From: a virus
Reading direction: 5' to 3' (one strand)
Length of the DNA: 24,693 bases
IMG/VR virus record: IMGVR_UViG_3300017710_000050
Coordinates: 1-24,693 of that record
Part shown: piece after piece, positions 18,009 through 23,299 of the stretch
How positions within the stretch are numbered: the stretch's first letter is position 1
Layout of the letters: each line of letters starts with the position of its first letter
The notes under the pieces: model-generated
What the model saw: only the letters and a program-made list of their open reading frames with translations
Told to the model about the DNA's origin: nothing
The model's database searches: none
Made by a program: the position numbers and the translations under genes

Positions 18009-19490
18009 ATGAGTAATATTCCAATTAGCAATGTAACAAGAAGGCAAGTTTTCGCAGCATCCTCTGCCACTACTTTTGCTTTTACATTTGAGGTTTTGTC
18101 AGAAACAGATATCTCTGTTTTTTCTGATGACACTCAGCTGGAATTATCAACCAACTATACAGTTACTTTAAACTCTGCAACTGGCACAGGGCAAGTTAAT
18201 TTAAGTGCGACACCTGTTGGTGTTTCTCAGATAGCTGTAATAGGTAATCGTGCGATCCAAAGAACAACAGATTTTACAACTGGTGGAGATTTCAACGCAA
18301 AAACTTTAAATGATGAATTAGATTCTCTAACAATTTTTGCCCAGCAAAATGCTGAAGGATTGCAAAGAACTTTAATTGCTCCACAGACTGATCCAGCTGG
18401 GTTGGATATGACCTTGCCTAGAGTATCGGATCGTGCAAATAAGTACTTGGCATTTGGTTCTGCTGGTGAGGCTATAGGTGGTGCAGCTGCTGTTGATATT
18501 TCTGGCATACAAGATTTGACAGCAGAGATTTCGGCTTTGGGTGGTTTAAGTTCAGAGCTTACAACTTTAGTTGCCTTTACTGCACAACTAACTAATTTAG
18601 GATCTGCCCAGGCAATAGCAAACTTATCGGCAGTAGGTGCGATAGCAAATGAAGTATCTGTTGTAAGCACGATGAAAACAGATATAGATAATGTTTTGGA
18701 TTCAACTGCTGAAATAAGTACGGCTGCTAGTTTATCAACTGCCCTATCCACTTTTGCTGGCATTGGAACAGCTGACATTGCGACTGTTGCAAGTTATGGT
18801 ACTGCAACGCTTACAGGGGTTGCATCCCAATCTGCAAACATTACTCAGGTTGCAAGTTTATCGGCAGAAATAACTGCTGTTTCAGCATCCAGTTATTCGG
18901 CATTAATGACAAATGCTGTTGGTATGTCTGCAAATATTGCACAAGTATTATCTCAGTCAGCAGAGATCACTCAGGTTGCATCTCAATCTGCTGAGATTAC
19001 TGGGGTGTTTAATATAAGAGCAAATGTTACAACTGCTGCTGATAATGTAAGTGCAATAAGCAGCAACTCTATAAACATTGGTGCAATTTCTGCTGTCAGT
19101 ACGAATATAAATAATATTAATAATTTGGGTTCTGCTGGTGCAGTATCTAATGTTGCAACAGTTGCATCTGCAATTGATTCAGTAAACACAGTTGCAACCA
19201 ACGTATCTGCAACAATAGTTTTTGGTCAGACTTACCTAGGTGCTTTAAATACCGCACCAGGGTCAGCAATTGAAGGGGCGTTGTACTGGAATTCATCAGC
19301 AGATAAATTATATGTGTTTGATTCTTCAGCCTGGAGTCAAGCAGCATTTGAAATTTCATCAACTGGAGTTTTAAGTGTTGATGGGGAAACAGGCCATGTC
19401 GTTTTATCAACCGCACAACTAACCGCAAAGCTAGACAACAGCTATGAGCCTAAAGGCAGAGCAGTTGCCATGAGTCTAGTGTTTTCATAG
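18009..19490 (+). CDS. tail fibre protein, T7-type N-terminus
   Basis: A 493-aa fibre. Residues 1-140 match the T7 tail-fibre attachment domain: VTRRQVFAASSATTFAFTFE, a 'LSTNYTVTLNSATGTGQVNL' strand pair, then the FTTGGDFNAKTLNDELD and FAQQNAEGLQRTL helices. The shaft (about 165-400) is built of short repeats of SAxIxxVxS type. The last 80 residues (GALYWNSSADKLYVFDSSAW, then GVLSVDGETGHVVLS) form a knob-like module common in phage fibres. The N-terminal domain binds the adaptor/nozzle; the shaft is probably trimeric. It starts 39 bases after the large ejection protein. Confidence 0.9.
   Translation: MSNIPISNVTRRQVFAASSATTFAFTFEVLSETDISVFSDDTQLELSTNYTVTLNSATGTGQVNLSATPVGVSQIAVIGNRAIQRTTDFTTGGDFNAKTLNDELDSLTIFAQQNAEGLQRTLIAPQTDPAGLDMTLPRVSDRANKYLAFGSAGEAIGGAAAVDISGIQDLTAEISALGGLSSELTTLVAFTAQLTNLGSAQAIANLSAVGAIANEVSVVSTMKTDIDNVLDSTAEISTAASLSTALSTFAGIGTADIATVASYGTATLTGVASQSANITQVASLSAEITAVSASSYSALMTNAVGMSANIAQVLSQSAEITQVASQSAEITGVFNIRANVTTAADNVSAISSNSINIGAISAVSTNINNINNLGSAGAVSNVATVASAIDSVNTVATNVSATIVFGQTYLGALNTAPGSAIEGALYWNSSADKLYVFDSSAWSQAAFEISSTGVLSVDGETGHVVLSTAQLTAKLDNSYEPKGRAVAMSLVFS
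18831..19007 (+). repeat. ten-residue repeats in the fibre shaft
   Basis: Within the fibre gene the unit SA(N/E)IxxV(A/L)S(Q/L) recurs at residues 275-284, 285-291, 307-316, 317-326 and 327-333. The DNA copies still share strings such as ACTCAGGTTGCA (18843-18854 and 18969-18980), so some duplication looks recent. Such repeats extend the trimeric shaft and can change length by recombination. Confidence 0.6.
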
Positions 19491-19502: not shown

Positions 19503-20444
19503 ATGGCACTCAAAGGTAATTCAACAAGCATTTCAGCCAATACTACTTTGGTGACTATGCCAGCAACGTTGGAGGGTGCTGTACATGGTTTACAAATTGG
19601 TAACACAACTTCCAATAACATTAATGTTGAGTTTAAATTTAAAGACTCAAGCAAGTCTGCTGAAACAACTTTTTTAGTTGCACCAGTTTCAGCTAACTCA
19701 ACTTTTACTTTTCAAAAACCAATCAATCTAAATAGCCAGGATGCAATAATTTGTTCATCTACTGCTACTGGGTTAGTTGGAATCACTTCAACCTTTGAAG
19801 ATTCAACAGTCAATTTAGGTGTGTTGAGTACAGCTGGTGTGTACACTTCGGCAACTACATATAGTTTTGGAGATTTAGTTTCTGATGGTGCTGGCAACAC
19901 ATTAATTTCCACTTTTAATAATAATGTAAATCGAGGCATTGCTAATGCTTCTGCATTTCAAACGTTTGCATCAAAGGGTGATACTGGAGATGTTTCATTG
20001 GCAGGAACAGCCGAACTTACAAACAAATCTTTTGCAGATTCAGTAACAGTTTCCGCAAGTTTAACTGCTAATACAGTAAATGATGTCGATGGAGATTTAC
20101 GAACTGTACCAACTTCACGAACTTTTGGTGCAGGTGTTACAGATGCGGCAACAGCATCAGCACTAGACGTAGGTAATTTTATTTTAATGACAGGAACTGC
20201 GGCTTCAGTCCAAAACTTAACGATTCCATCAGGAGTGTTTTCAACAGGAGATGTCTTTACATTAGTTAACACTCCATATGGCGGAAAAACAGCGGCATCA
20301 ACAACAACTATTTCTGCGGCGGCTACTGCCTTTGTTGCAGGAGGAACATCAGCAACTGCTGTGATTTCTCTAGGTTTTAATGGAGTTGCAACAGTTTTAT
20401 TTGCAAGTGCCAATGGTTGTTTTATAACAGGAAACGTGGAGTAA
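19503..20444 (+). CDS. second tail fibre or fibre-tip protein
   Basis: A 313-aa Ser/Thr/Ala-rich protein with a GGAG ribosome-binding site just upstream. The N-terminal 100 residues are a beta sandwich-like stretch. 'YTSATTYSFGDLVSDGAGNT' (near 118) resembles a small carbohydrate-binding motif, and it is followed by a collagen-like SKGDTGDV. The C-terminal domain 'VQNLTIPSGVFSTGDVFTLV' and what follows is a beta module often found at the ends of phage fibres. It probably assembles with the fibre upstream and the glycine-rich protein downstream to make the receptor-binding apparatus. Confidence 0.7.
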   Translation: MALKGNSTSISANTTLVTMPATLEGAVHGLQIGNTTSNNINVEFKFKDSSKSAETTFLVAPVSANSTFTFQKPINLNSQDAIICSSTATGLVGITSTFEDSTVNLGVLSTAGVYTSATTYSFGDLVSDGAGNTLISTFNNNVNRGIANASAFQTFASKGDTGDVSLAGTAELTNKSFADSVTVSASLTANTVNDVDGDLRTVPTSRTFGAGVTDAATASALDVGNFILMTGTAASVQNLTIPSGVFSTGDVFTLVNTPYGGKTAASTTTISAAATAFVAGGTSATAVISLGFNGVATVLFASANGCFITGNVE

Positions 20445-20447
20445 AAA

Positions 20448-21518
20448 ATGACAGGAATACATCAAGTTTTATTATCTAACTTTTCAGCAGGAGAGGGAGG
20501 TGCCCCTACTGAAATTGAATTATTTGTTTTGGCAGGAGGAGCATCTGGTGGTGGTGGAACCCACGGAGGAGGCGGAGGTGCAGGTGGATTAAGAATGTTT
20601 ACTGCGGCATCAACATTAACATTAACGGCTGACACAACTTATTCTATTAGTGTTGGTGGTGGTGGTCCACTGGCAGAAAATTCCCAAGTAGGTAATGATG
20701 GTACTAACTCTTTTTTCACTTCATCAGGTGTTCATATTGTAGCAACTGGCGGTGGAGGTGGTGGTTGTTCTGGAGGCACAGGTACAAATCAACCTGTTTC
20801 TACTGTTGCTCGAACTGGCGGTTGTGGTGGTGGTGGAATGGCTGATAGTAACGTAAACGCAGGTGGTATTAATAATGGTGCTTCTGGTAATGCAGGTGGA
20901 AGTTTAAATGGAATACCTGAAGGATTTAATGGCGGTGATGGACTTGATGGTACTTCTCAGCATACTACTTGTGGAGGCGGTGGTGGTGCAGGTGCAAATG
21001 GTGGCCCTGCTATAAATAATGGTACTAATAAAAAAGGAGGTGCAGGTGGGACAGGAAAAACAGAATCAATAACTGGTCAAAGTTTAGAAATTGGAGGTGG
21101 CGGTGGAGGGGCTACTGATGCGACTGGAGGAAGTCCACAAGTAGGATCAGCAGGTGGTTTAGGTACTCATGGCGGTGGTCGAGGTGCTACTGGTTTAGGT
21201 AATATAACTACCAATTCTTCAGGCACCCACCAACAGGGAACAACAGACGATCCTACGGCAGGAACAGATAATAAAGGAGGTGGTGGAGGTGGAGCTTCAG
21301 CTGCGTGTTTTAGTGATGGTGTTCGAGCAAGCCCTACATTAATAAATAAAAGTGGAGCAGGAGGGTCTGGCTTAATAGGTATTGCTTACTTAAAAAAGTT
21401 TAGAAATATTCAATCAATAGGTGCAGGTTTAACACCAGGCAAATCAGCAGACACTACTCTACGAACAGGTTATAAAGTTTATACGTTTACTGCTGGTAGT
21501 GGCGATATAGAATTTTAA
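20448..21518 (+). CDS. glycine-rich adhesin-like protein
   Basis: A 356-aa protein with dense glycine runs interrupted by short spacers: GGGGTHGGGGGAGGLRMF near residue 35, and further Gly-rich stretches to about residue 285. The framing sequences fit the Gly-rich phage/bacterial domain: 'EIELFVLAGGASGGGG' at the start, TTYSISVGGGG, and TGYKVYTFTAGSGDIEF at the end. Known relatives include polyglycine-helix adhesins at phage fibre tips, such as gp38-type tips that bind receptors through loops set in a glycine lattice. Here the gene comes after two fibre genes, as expected of a tip. Receptor specificity is unknown. Base composition is shifted to GGN codons. Confidence 0.75.
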   Translation: MTGIHQVLLSNFSAGEGGAPTEIELFVLAGGASGGGGTHGGGGGAGGLRMFTAASTLTLTADTTYSISVGGGGPLAENSQVGNDGTNSFFTSSGVHIVATGGGGGGCSGGTGTNQPVSTVARTGGCGGGGMADSNVNAGGINNGASGNAGGSLNGIPEGFNGGDGLDGTSQHTTCGGGGGAGANGGPAINNGTNKKGGAGGTGKTESITGQSLEIGGGGGGATDATGGSPQVGSAGGLGTHGGGRGATGLGNITTNSSGTHQQGTTDDPTAGTDNKGGGGGGASAACFSDGVRASPTLINKSGAGGSGLIGIAYLKKFRNIQSIGAGLTPGKSADTTLRTGYKVYTFTAGSGDIEF

Positions 21519-21522
21519 GGAG
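21517..21522 (+). promoter_or_regulatory. ribosome-binding site supporting a TTG start
   Basis: AAGGAG lies eight bases before the TTG at 21531, across an eight-base A run. No in-frame ATG or GTG lies near, so this site decides the rare start. The motif overlaps the stop of the glycine-rich gene. Confidence 0.7.
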
Positions 21523-21530
21523 AAAAAAAA

Positions 21531-21932
21531 TTGGCACATTATGCAATTTTAGATTCTGATAATGTTGTTATTCATGTAACAACAGGCAAAGACGAAAATA
21601 ATACTGACTATGAAAGAGATGGTAAATCATCTTGGGAAGAGTGGTATCGAGATTATTTTAATGCTCATGATTGTAAAAGAACAAGCTATAACACTCATGC
21701 AAATGCTCATAGATTAGGTGGTACACCTTTTCGTAAAAATTATGCAGGAAAGGGATTTACTTACGACTCTAGCAAAGATGCTTTTATTTCTCCAAAACCA
21801 TTTACAAGTTGGGTTTTAGATGAAACTACTTGTACATGGAAAGCACCTGTTTCATATCCAACTGATGGTAAAAATTATAATTGGAATGAGGATACAACTT
21901 CTTGGGTAGAAGTTACAAACTATGGAAATTAG
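21531..21932 (+). CDS. fibre-associated conserved marine-phage protein, TTG start
   Basis: A 133-aa protein. MAHYAILDSDNVVIHV opens it; 'RKNYAGKGFTYDSSKDAFIS' and PKPFTSWVLDETTCTWKAPV follow, then YPTDGKNYNWNEDTTSWVE. I recall this pattern as a frequent virion-associated protein of cyanophages and other marine phages, usually next to fibre genes and without assigned function. A Trp-rich C-terminal repeat (SWVL, TWKA, NWNE, SWVE) suggests a small beta fold that could bind a fibre or a glycan. Its end overlaps the oxygenase gene by 11 bases. Confidence 0.8.
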   Translation: MAHYAILDSDNVVIHVTTGKDENNTDYERDGKSSWEEWYRDYFNAHDCKRTSYNTHANAHRLGGTPFRKNYAGKGFTYDSSKDAFISPKPFTSWVLDETTCTWKAPVSYPTDGKNYNWNEDTTSWVEVTNYGN

Positions 21933-22539
21933 TCTTAAAACTGTTGATGATCAACCTGTAATTATTATAAACAATTATTTTGACAACAATGAATATAACC
22001 AATTAACAAATTTTATTTTTGATTTAAATCCATATGAGTGGCACACAAATCCAAAAAAAACATTTGGTGCAACAAAAGAGGAAGGCACTATTCAATTAAA
22101 AAAAAATTATGCAATTAATTTAGATAGTTTGTACACAGCAGAAGGAAGAAAGTACTGTCCAGTTTTTAACATTAATAGGAAACTTTTTATAAAAGAAGTT
22201 ACAAAAAAATTAATAAAATTAAATCCTTTATTTAATTATTTAGAGTCTTGTACTTCTGATACTACTTTTTTAAATTATTACGAAAATAATAATTTATATG
22301 ATTTTCATAAAGATATAGCAGTCTTTACTGCTAATTATATCTTTTTTAAAGAATCTAAAAATTTTAAAGGTGGCGAGTTTAATATTGAAAATAAATTAAT
22401 TAATAAACCAGAAAACAATACTATGATAATTTTTCCATCTTTTTTACACCATAAAGTTGAAACTGTACTAATGCCAGAAAGCAAACGAGGACAATGCTTG
22501 GGTAGATTTTCAATGACTCAATTCTGCTCTTTTAAATAA
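21922..22539 (+). CDS. 2-oxoglutarate/Fe(II)-dependent oxygenase
   Basis: A 205-aa protein with the double-stranded beta-helix iron site of this superfamily: H129xD131 in YDFHKDIAVF, a distal His at 176 or 177 (FLHHKVE) and the co-substrate Arg195 in GRFSM. Family length and spacing fit prolyl-4-hydroxylase-like phage oxygenases. These enzymes couple 2-oxoglutarate decarboxylation to hydroxylation of a protein or small molecule. Marine phages often carry one near fibre genes, where modification of virion or host proteins has been suggested. Substrate here is unknown. It overlaps the fibre-associated gene, so it is probably made with the fibres. The coding sequence is more Asn/Lys-rich and AT-rich than the fibre genes. 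Confidence 0.85.
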   Translation: MEISLKTVDDQPVIIINNYFDNNEYNQLTNFIFDLNPYEWHTNPKKTFGATKEEGTIQLKKNYAINLDSLYTAEGRKYCPVFNINRKLFIKEVTKKLIKLNPLFNYLESCTSDTTFLNYYENNNLYDFHKDIAVFTANYIFFKESKNFKGGEFNIENKLINKPENNTMIIFPSFLHHKVETVLMPESKRGQCLGRFSMTQFCSFK

Positions 22540-22759: not shown

Positions 22760-23299
22760 ATGTTAGACCCAGTATCAGTAACAGCATTAATTGCAACTGC
22801 TACAACTTCTTTTAATGCAATTAAATCTGCAATTGCGTTGGGAAAAGATATAACGCAAACTATGCAATCCGTAATGACCTGGGCAGATTCAGTTGATACT
22901 CTGCACGAAAAATTACAGGAAGATAAAAACAAAGAGAAAAAATTTACTGTTAAAAATGGTCACTCTGAAACTGCTCAAGTTTTAGATGCAATGACAATTC
23001 GGTTAAAGACAGCTGATTGGGAGAAACAACTTAAGCACGAATTTTTGTATGGAGGTTTAAGAAGATTCTCTGACATTTGTAATGATGGTCGTGGCACTAC
23101 AATGGATGCGTATAAAGAATTTCTAAAGTTAAGACGTGAACTGCGTAGTAAGAAAATTAGAGAAAGACAAGAGGCTAGAGCAAAAAAACAAAAGTTAATT
23201 AATGATGTGATTAATGGAACTCTAATAGCCTCATTAATTGCTTTGGCAATTGCAATTGTTTATACAGCTTATTATGTGATTGTAGAGTATAAAGGATAG
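22760..23299 (+). CDS. C-terminally membrane-anchored conserved phage protein
   Basis: A 179-aa protein. Residues 5-28 are Ala/Thr-rich and mildly hydrophobic (SVTALIATATTSFNAIKSAI). The middle is charged and helical. Residues about 120-145 are strongly basic (ELRSKKIRERQEARAKKQK), followed by a single membrane span (INGTLIASLIALAIAIVYTA, from about 151). I recall related proteins near the lysis genes of T4-like cyanophages and other marine phages, annotated as virion structural or unknown. With basic residues before the span, the bulk should face the cytoplasm. It could be a lysis regulator or a virion protein. Confidence 0.7.
   Translation: MLDPVSVTALIATATTSFNAIKSAIALGKDITQTMQSVMTWADSVDTLHEKLQEDKNKEKKFTVKNGHSETAQVLDAMTIRLKTADWEKQLKHEFLYGGLRRFSDICNDGRGTTMDAYKEFLKLRRELRSKKIRERQEARAKKQKLINDVINGTLIASLIALAIAIVYTAYYVIVEYKG

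Follow-up and report, generated by a model that had tools for sequence, protein, structure and literature searches.

A 2-oxoglutarate oxygenase gene linked to a mobile glycine-rich adhesin cassette in a podovirus, and its possible role as an accessory protein hydroxylase

Few 'auxiliary' genes recur in marine phages as often as those of the 2OG-Fe(II) oxygenases, for which the functional guesses offered so far are DNA repair and nitrogen/2OG metabolism. Here we ask what such an enzyme does when its gene sits among the predicted receptor-binding genes of a small marine podovirus. The stretch of DNA analyzed (the window) is an entire IMG/VR record of 24,693 bp. It has a podovirus gene order, in which terminase, head-tail connector, major head protein, tail tubular proteins and internal virion proteins are followed by fibre genes, a holin and an M15 endolysin. 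The nearest cultured relative is Methylophilales phage MEP301, with 57% identity in tail tubular protein B. An original prediction, made from the sequence, held that an oxygenase encoded behind the fibres hydroxylates a fibre, an adhesin or a host surface component, much as collagen is hydroxylated. The features that bear on this idea are listed in Table 1.

Table 1. Genes, catalytic codons and shared block of the tip region (window coordinates)
Feature	Position	Strand	Basis or remark
Tail fibre protein	18009..19490	+	phrog_1640 'tail protein', E=7.9e-17, residues 19-125
Second fibre-region protein, 313 aa	19503..20444	+	Homologues in L002, L003, L141 and L157
Glycine-rich adhesin, Gly_rich_2 domain, 29.5% Gly	20448..21518	+	PF21722, E=4.5e-8; phrog_2295, E=2.5e-28
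Mosaic block shared with L002	21348..22550	+	blastn, 91.5% DNA identity
phrog_7759 protein, 133 aa, TTG start	21531..21932	+	phrog_7759, E=4.3e-43
2OG-Fe(II) oxygenase, 205 aa	21922..22539	+	PF13640, phrog_61, AF2 model and Foldseek, invariant residues, dN/dS
H129-K-D131 codons (HxD iron ligands)	22306..22314	+	H and D invariant in 27 aligned sequences
H177 codon (distal iron-ligand histidine)	22450..22452	+	Invariant in 27 aligned sequences
R195 codon (predicted 2OG-binding arginine)	22504..22506	+	Invariant in 27 aligned sequences

The genes of the tip region all point the same way and are never more than 12 nt apart; the last two, those of the phrog_7759 protein and the oxygenase, overlap by 11 nt (21922-21932). 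Based on this tight packing, they are probably co-transcribed; a sigma-70 promoter scan found promoter-like sites below chance, and a terminator scan gave results near chance. The N-terminal 125 residues of the first fibre protein match phage tail-protein families, and the protein as a whole is 71% identical to its counterpart in L141, a sister by backbone. No family match was found for the second fibre-region protein in Pfam or PHROG. The glycine-rich adhesin that had been predicted is indeed present, its score against PF21722 exceeding the profile cut-off, and we predict from its sequence that it is a receptor-binding adhesin of the Pam3 gp24 / S16 gp38 type. The oxygenase was said to come directly after this adhesin, which is not the case, for the phrog_7759 gene stands between them. 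It was also said to overlap a fibre-associated protein; the overlap is real, but the overlapped gene encodes the phrog_7759 protein, which is not a proven fibre. Lysis genes, not replication genes, follow the oxygenase. Downstream of the tip cassette and ahead of the holin lies a gene for a 179-aa protein (22760-23299) with an MLDP start and, as judged by eye, a C-terminal hydrophobic stretch. Its product has a weak phrog_32327 match alone, and MLDP/MDP-type proteins occupy the same position in several related loci.

The claim that the oxygenase is intact, with an HxD...H...R set of catalytic residues, was borne out. The protein passes the PF13640 cut-off of 27 marginally (27.9 bits, E=4.8e-6) and matches phrog_61, '2OG-Fe(II) oxygenase', at E=1.5e-12. 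A six-frame PF13640 search over the window missed the gene at E<=0.001, even though hmmscan matched the protein. Likewise, a phmmer search of PDB with the single sequence found nothing, while a profile of 27 oxygenase sequences reached a PKHD hydroxylase at 1.2e-4. The iron triad (H129, D131, H177) and the C-terminal basic residue (R195) are all in place. An AlphaFold (AF2) model with a mean pLDDT of 87 shows the double-stranded beta-helix fold, and its top Foldseek matches in PDB are 2OG oxygenases, with E-values down to 2.7e-8. These include Shewanella PKHD (3dkq), PolD, PiuC, Dictyostelium PHD, OGFOD1/Tpa1, human LH3, P. putida P4H and the PBCV-1 collagen P4H. The nearest named models in BFVD are cyanophage 2OG oxygenases. 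Since dN/dS is about 0.06 against the copy in L002 and 0.23 against that in L003, the gene is maintained under purifying selection. Taken together, the sequence and the model suggest an intact, selected and active-looking Fe(II)/2OG dioxygenase of the prolyl/peptidyl-hydroxylase fold class. The PKHD/PHD/P4H-like fold of the model would fit a protein hydroxylase; it does not fix the substrate class, because PiuC, PolD and AlkB-type enzymes are also among the fold neighbours.

Two other functions of such enzymes can be weighed against these data. Phage 2OG oxygenases are usually annotated as nucleic-acid enzymes, that is, AlkB-like proteins of DNA/RNA repair or base modification, and DNA repair has been proposed for them in the literature (PMC9146016, PMC11288001). 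AlkB-type structures do occur in the fold list, but they rank below the PKHD, PHD and P4H enzymes, and no AlkB Pfam family matches the protein; we therefore rejected an identification as an AlkB-type dealkylase. With the gene linked to an adhesin and followed by lysis genes, a nucleic-acid role in general is very unlikely. Least probable is hydroxylation of a small molecule (an amino acid, siderophore or similar) for host or phage metabolism. PolD and PiuC, which are among the best fold matches, would fit it, but the window holds no biosynthetic partner genes, and the linkage is to adhesin genes.

The analogy with collagen hydroxylation found no support in the composition of the candidate substrates. 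The collagen-like 'GDTG stretch' that had been noticed in the upstream fibre is a single KGDTGD (19974-19991) in the second fibre-region protein, and in neither fibre protein did a sequence scan find as many as four Gly-X-Y triplets in a row. Proline makes up 1.4-1.9% of the two fibre proteins (1.9% of the second) and 2.5% of the adhesin, whose short Gly-X-Y runs are poly-Gly. Glycine-rich tips such as Pam3 gp24 and S16 gp38, with which the adhesin belongs, are not collagens (PMC9608196). A collagen-type prolyl 4-hydroxylase system was thus rejected, as no collagen Gly-X-Pro substrate is encoded nearby.

Comparison with related loci has also shown that the adhesin cassette, comprising the glycine-rich adhesin, phrog_7759 and the oxygenase, is mobile and has been exchanged between unrelated backbones. 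The block shared with L002 starts within the adhesin gene, of which it takes in the codons for about 56 C-terminal residues, continues through phrog_7759 and the oxygenase, and ends 11 bp past the oxygenase stop codon; the remaining genes of L002 are unrelated to those of the window or nearly so (23% identity in the head protein). The L003-L007 loci carry the cassette on another backbone, together with an inserted 158-aa oxygenase-like gene. In contrast, L157 retains the C-terminus of the adhesin (88% identity), phrog_7759 (83%), the holin (93%) and the endolysin (85%), and there phrog_7759 runs straight into the next gene, the oxygenase being absent; this empty site is read from the ORF map, as the unrelated downstream genes at the window/L157 junction do not align as DNA. 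The 30.3-kb record of L157 contained no match to our oxygenase profile (A5) or to PF13759. Similarly, L141 is close to the window in backbone (82% identity between the internal virion proteins) and has a glycine-rich adhesin and phrog_7759 with no oxygenase at the site. In MEP301, a GIY-YIG/NUMOD3 nuclease occupies the equivalent region. The oxygenase therefore behaves as an exchangeable accessory and is not a fixed requirement of the adhesin, since in L157 this adhesin tail and phrog_7759 persist although the enzyme is missing. An obligate oxygenase-adhesin pair is ruled out by L157 and L141. The window and L002, with the oxygenase, and L157, without it, constitute natural with/without pairs for one adhesin type. 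An adhesin C-terminus with a lone TPG was considered as a marker for the oxygenase and discarded: the DNA pattern matched only L002 and L157, and L157 has no enzyme. As a separate observation, L141 encodes a 323-aa TPR and 2OG-FeII_Oxy_5 (PF13759) fusion (L141:9679-10650) directly behind its M15 endolysin, not beside the adhesin.

Linkage in relatives, whose absence was to count against the original prediction, was examined in 80 phrog_7759 loci from IMG/VR that were picked without regard to oxygenases. Seventeen of them hold oxygenases, 21 genes in all, and every one of the 21 lies within 3.5 kb of phrog_7759. Ten of these genes fall in the 1 kb just upstream of phrog_7759, an excess with a binomial p of about 6e-6 relative to sequence coverage, although genes that share a locus are not independent. 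Clustering divides the 21 genes into 13 groups at 70% identity and into 10 at 50%, and the linkage therefore does not come from one lineage. The linkage of the pair in relatives thus stands, while its obligate character does not. Cultured phages gave a similar picture: an annotated 2OG oxygenase lies beside or near phrog_7759 in nine of the 16 phrog_7759-bearing records inspected (DSL-LC04, S-SM1, S-RSM4, P-RSM4, S-MS29, S-CAM8, HTVC023P, HTVC033P and HTVC008M), and by annotation none does in the other seven (ctn9Y15, HTVC025P, CRP-207, CRP-143, Melnitz-3, Bellamy and Greip, the last being a cut record). In Melnitz, a 2OG gene has been described among the replication genes (PMC9004378). An oxygenase gene lies just upstream of structural/fibre genes in P-SSM7 and S-SSM5, and in Mosig 2OG oxygenases lie directly downstream of fibre genes. 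Several oxygenase families are thus linked to the adhesin/phrog_7759 pair across different backbones, which is evidence for a functional connection with the host-recognition cassette. A 'dioxygenase island', with several oxygenase-type genes (2OG, phytanoyl-CoA dioxygenase and 'leprecan') near the fibre genes or phrog_7759, was also seen in L136, L162, L163, L013 and L160, which are of cyano- and pelagiphages.

The optional presence of the enzyme somewhat favours a different explanation, namely that the gene is a moron in a recombination hotspot and acts on host metabolism or stress, through 2OG/nitrogen signalling or another host protein, with no relation to the adhesin. Near-identical cassettes are indeed polymorphic for the gene (L157, L141), and the nuclease of MEP301 lies in the equivalent region. 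In addition, 2OG oxygenases have been described as the auxiliary genes with the most copies in one marine cyanophage (PMC10436341), and action via 2OG/NtcA has been proposed (PMC3037559). However, a hotspot filled at random should contain mixed enzymes, whereas oxygenases of several families dominate here and enzymes of any other family are limited to one or two occurrences. The remaining non-Gly-rich ORFs near phrog_7759 form 129 clusters, of which any given Pfam family matches two at most, compared with 20-21 oxygenases, and the families that recur are structural, lysis or recombination proteins. Moreover, neither PF13759 nor PF13640 was found outside the fibre locus in 34 records scanned whole (32 of the 80 loci plus L002 and L007). 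This dominance of oxygenases over other enzymes makes a purely random hotspot less likely, and we consider a moron unrelated to the adhesin somewhat improbable.

Upstream sequence sufficed for a search for glycine-rich ORFs in 72 of the 80 loci. Such an ORF stands directly upstream of phrog_7759 in 50, the order Gly-rich, oxygenase, phrog_7759, with the enzyme inside the pair, occurs in eight, and eight further loci have a glycine-rich ORF within 1.5 kb (66/72 in total). The phrog_7759 protein is thus a regular partner of glycine-rich adhesins, and we regard it as a putative adhesin chaperone or tip component. Its AF2 model is confident (pLDDT 92.5), and Foldseek found nothing significant in PDB, the Pam3 structure 7ypx_a and the Mu tail-fibre/chaperone 5yvq_B appearing at E-values of about 4; nor did the protein match Pfam. 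With fold matches of this kind, we do not treat it as a proven chaperone. The family is extremely common, with at least 580 confirmed stretches in IMG/VR, and it usually lies behind a glycine-rich adhesin.

Pam3 offers a close parallel to this arrangement: its fibre gp24 has a glycine-rich tip that binds the receptor and is accompanied by a small partner protein of its own, the chaperone gp25 (PMC9608196). However, comparisons of sequence and fold gave no significant match between the window's phrog_7759 and gp25, and, unlike for the window cassette, no oxygenase is described for Pam3 in the text consulted. The enzyme has counterparts in the cyanomyovirus oxygenases of phrog_61/PF13640 (T4-like GC 611; S-SM1 SSM1_056 and S-RSM4 SRSM4_136), which have the same catalytic residues at 33-34% identity and which, in S-SM1, S-RSM4 and P-SSM7, are likewise near fibre genes. 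The cyanomyoviruses carry multi-gene oxygenase clusters, whereas the window has a single copy that overlaps phrog_7759 behind a glycine-rich adhesin in a small podovirus. A second family, phrog_81/PF13759 (2OG-FeII_Oxy_5), belongs to the same superfamily (profile-profile probability 94.6) and occupies the same cassette. Its members have an HHxHxHP-type motif and lie between the adhesin and phrog_7759 (L059, L076, L099, L115) or beside phrog_7759 (DSL-LC04), in contrast to the window's order of adhesin, phrog_7759, oxygenase. The collagen prolyl hydroxylase of Paramecium bursaria Chlorella virus-1 (PBCV-1; 5c5t) and human EGLN/PHD share the fold class, and EGLN3 likeness of phage phrog_61 proteins in general has been reported (PMC12774648); the window enzyme, however, has a TM-score of about 0.5 and 13-15% identity to the viral protein (vCPH), and its phage offers no collagen substrate. 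The gene is hence a further member of a known family, and its adhesin-cassette context is the new part. The original prediction regarded modification of virion tips in podoviruses as new, which goes too far. That phage prolyl hydroxylases might have a role related to tail fibres and collagen had already been floated in passing (PMC9301287), but in the open-access literature searched we found no demonstration of such a role and no report of the linkage to the adhesin and phrog_7759, or of a hydroxylated phage tail protein.

The linkage in podo- and myoviruses points to the host-recognition apparatus of the virion or to its receptor. The receptor side would involve an enzyme that modifies the host surface late in infection (a glycan, lipid A or an outer-membrane protein), for example to keep progeny from sticking to debris or to shut out other phages. 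Linkage to receptor-binding genes fits this idea as well as it fits modification of the adhesin. However, inspection by eye of the 205 residues of the oxygenase showed neither a signal peptide nor a membrane segment; a cytoplasmic enzyme would have to use precursors, and no recognised lipid or glycan hydroxylase is among the listed fold neighbours. We regard a receptor-side enzyme as quite unlikely. Based on these observations, we tentatively propose, as the best though far from assured reading, that the product is a late-made accessory protein hydroxylase whose target is most likely the glycine-rich adhesin, a fibre or phrog_7759. The gene would be carried as an optional member of the mobile adhesin cassette in the podovirus structural block, and its product would be made late together with the fibre proteins. 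It may then hydroxylate a small number of residues, perhaps a single one, in a newly synthesised protein. The enzyme could in this way tune how that protein folds, how stable it is or how it binds the receptor, and would not be essential. A broader version of this proposal is doubtful: exchangeable 2OG dioxygenases of several families, with genes next to or within the adhesin/phrog_7759 pair, might form a widespread modular system of post-translational modification for the receptor-binding tips of marine phages, hydroxylating the adhesin, tuning host recognition or virion stability, and being gained and lost like host-range determinants.

Two annotated families seen in these loci may bear incorrect names. 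The phrog_274 proteins, labelled 'DNA endonuclease V' (denV), are encoded in cyanophages and pelagiphages (L013:7137-7625, L136:6451-6963, L003:6318-6794); HxD...H...R is invariant in five sequences, and they match the 2OG profiles built here. A 'DNA endonuclease V' of BFVD also appears among the fold matches of the window oxygenase. The phrog_274 proteins appear to be 2OG oxygenases that carry the wrong name. The phrog_2954 proteins, labelled 'ferrochelatase', recur in fibre-adjacent oxygenase clusters (L139:8313-8933, L136:5681-6451, L163:5985-6626, L162:4377-4967, L164:8781-9425). Profile searches of Pfam and PDB gave no ferrochelatase match for them; HxD...H is invariant in eight sequences and two members have weak 2OG-profile matches, and this is possibly another misnamed 2OG oxygenase family.
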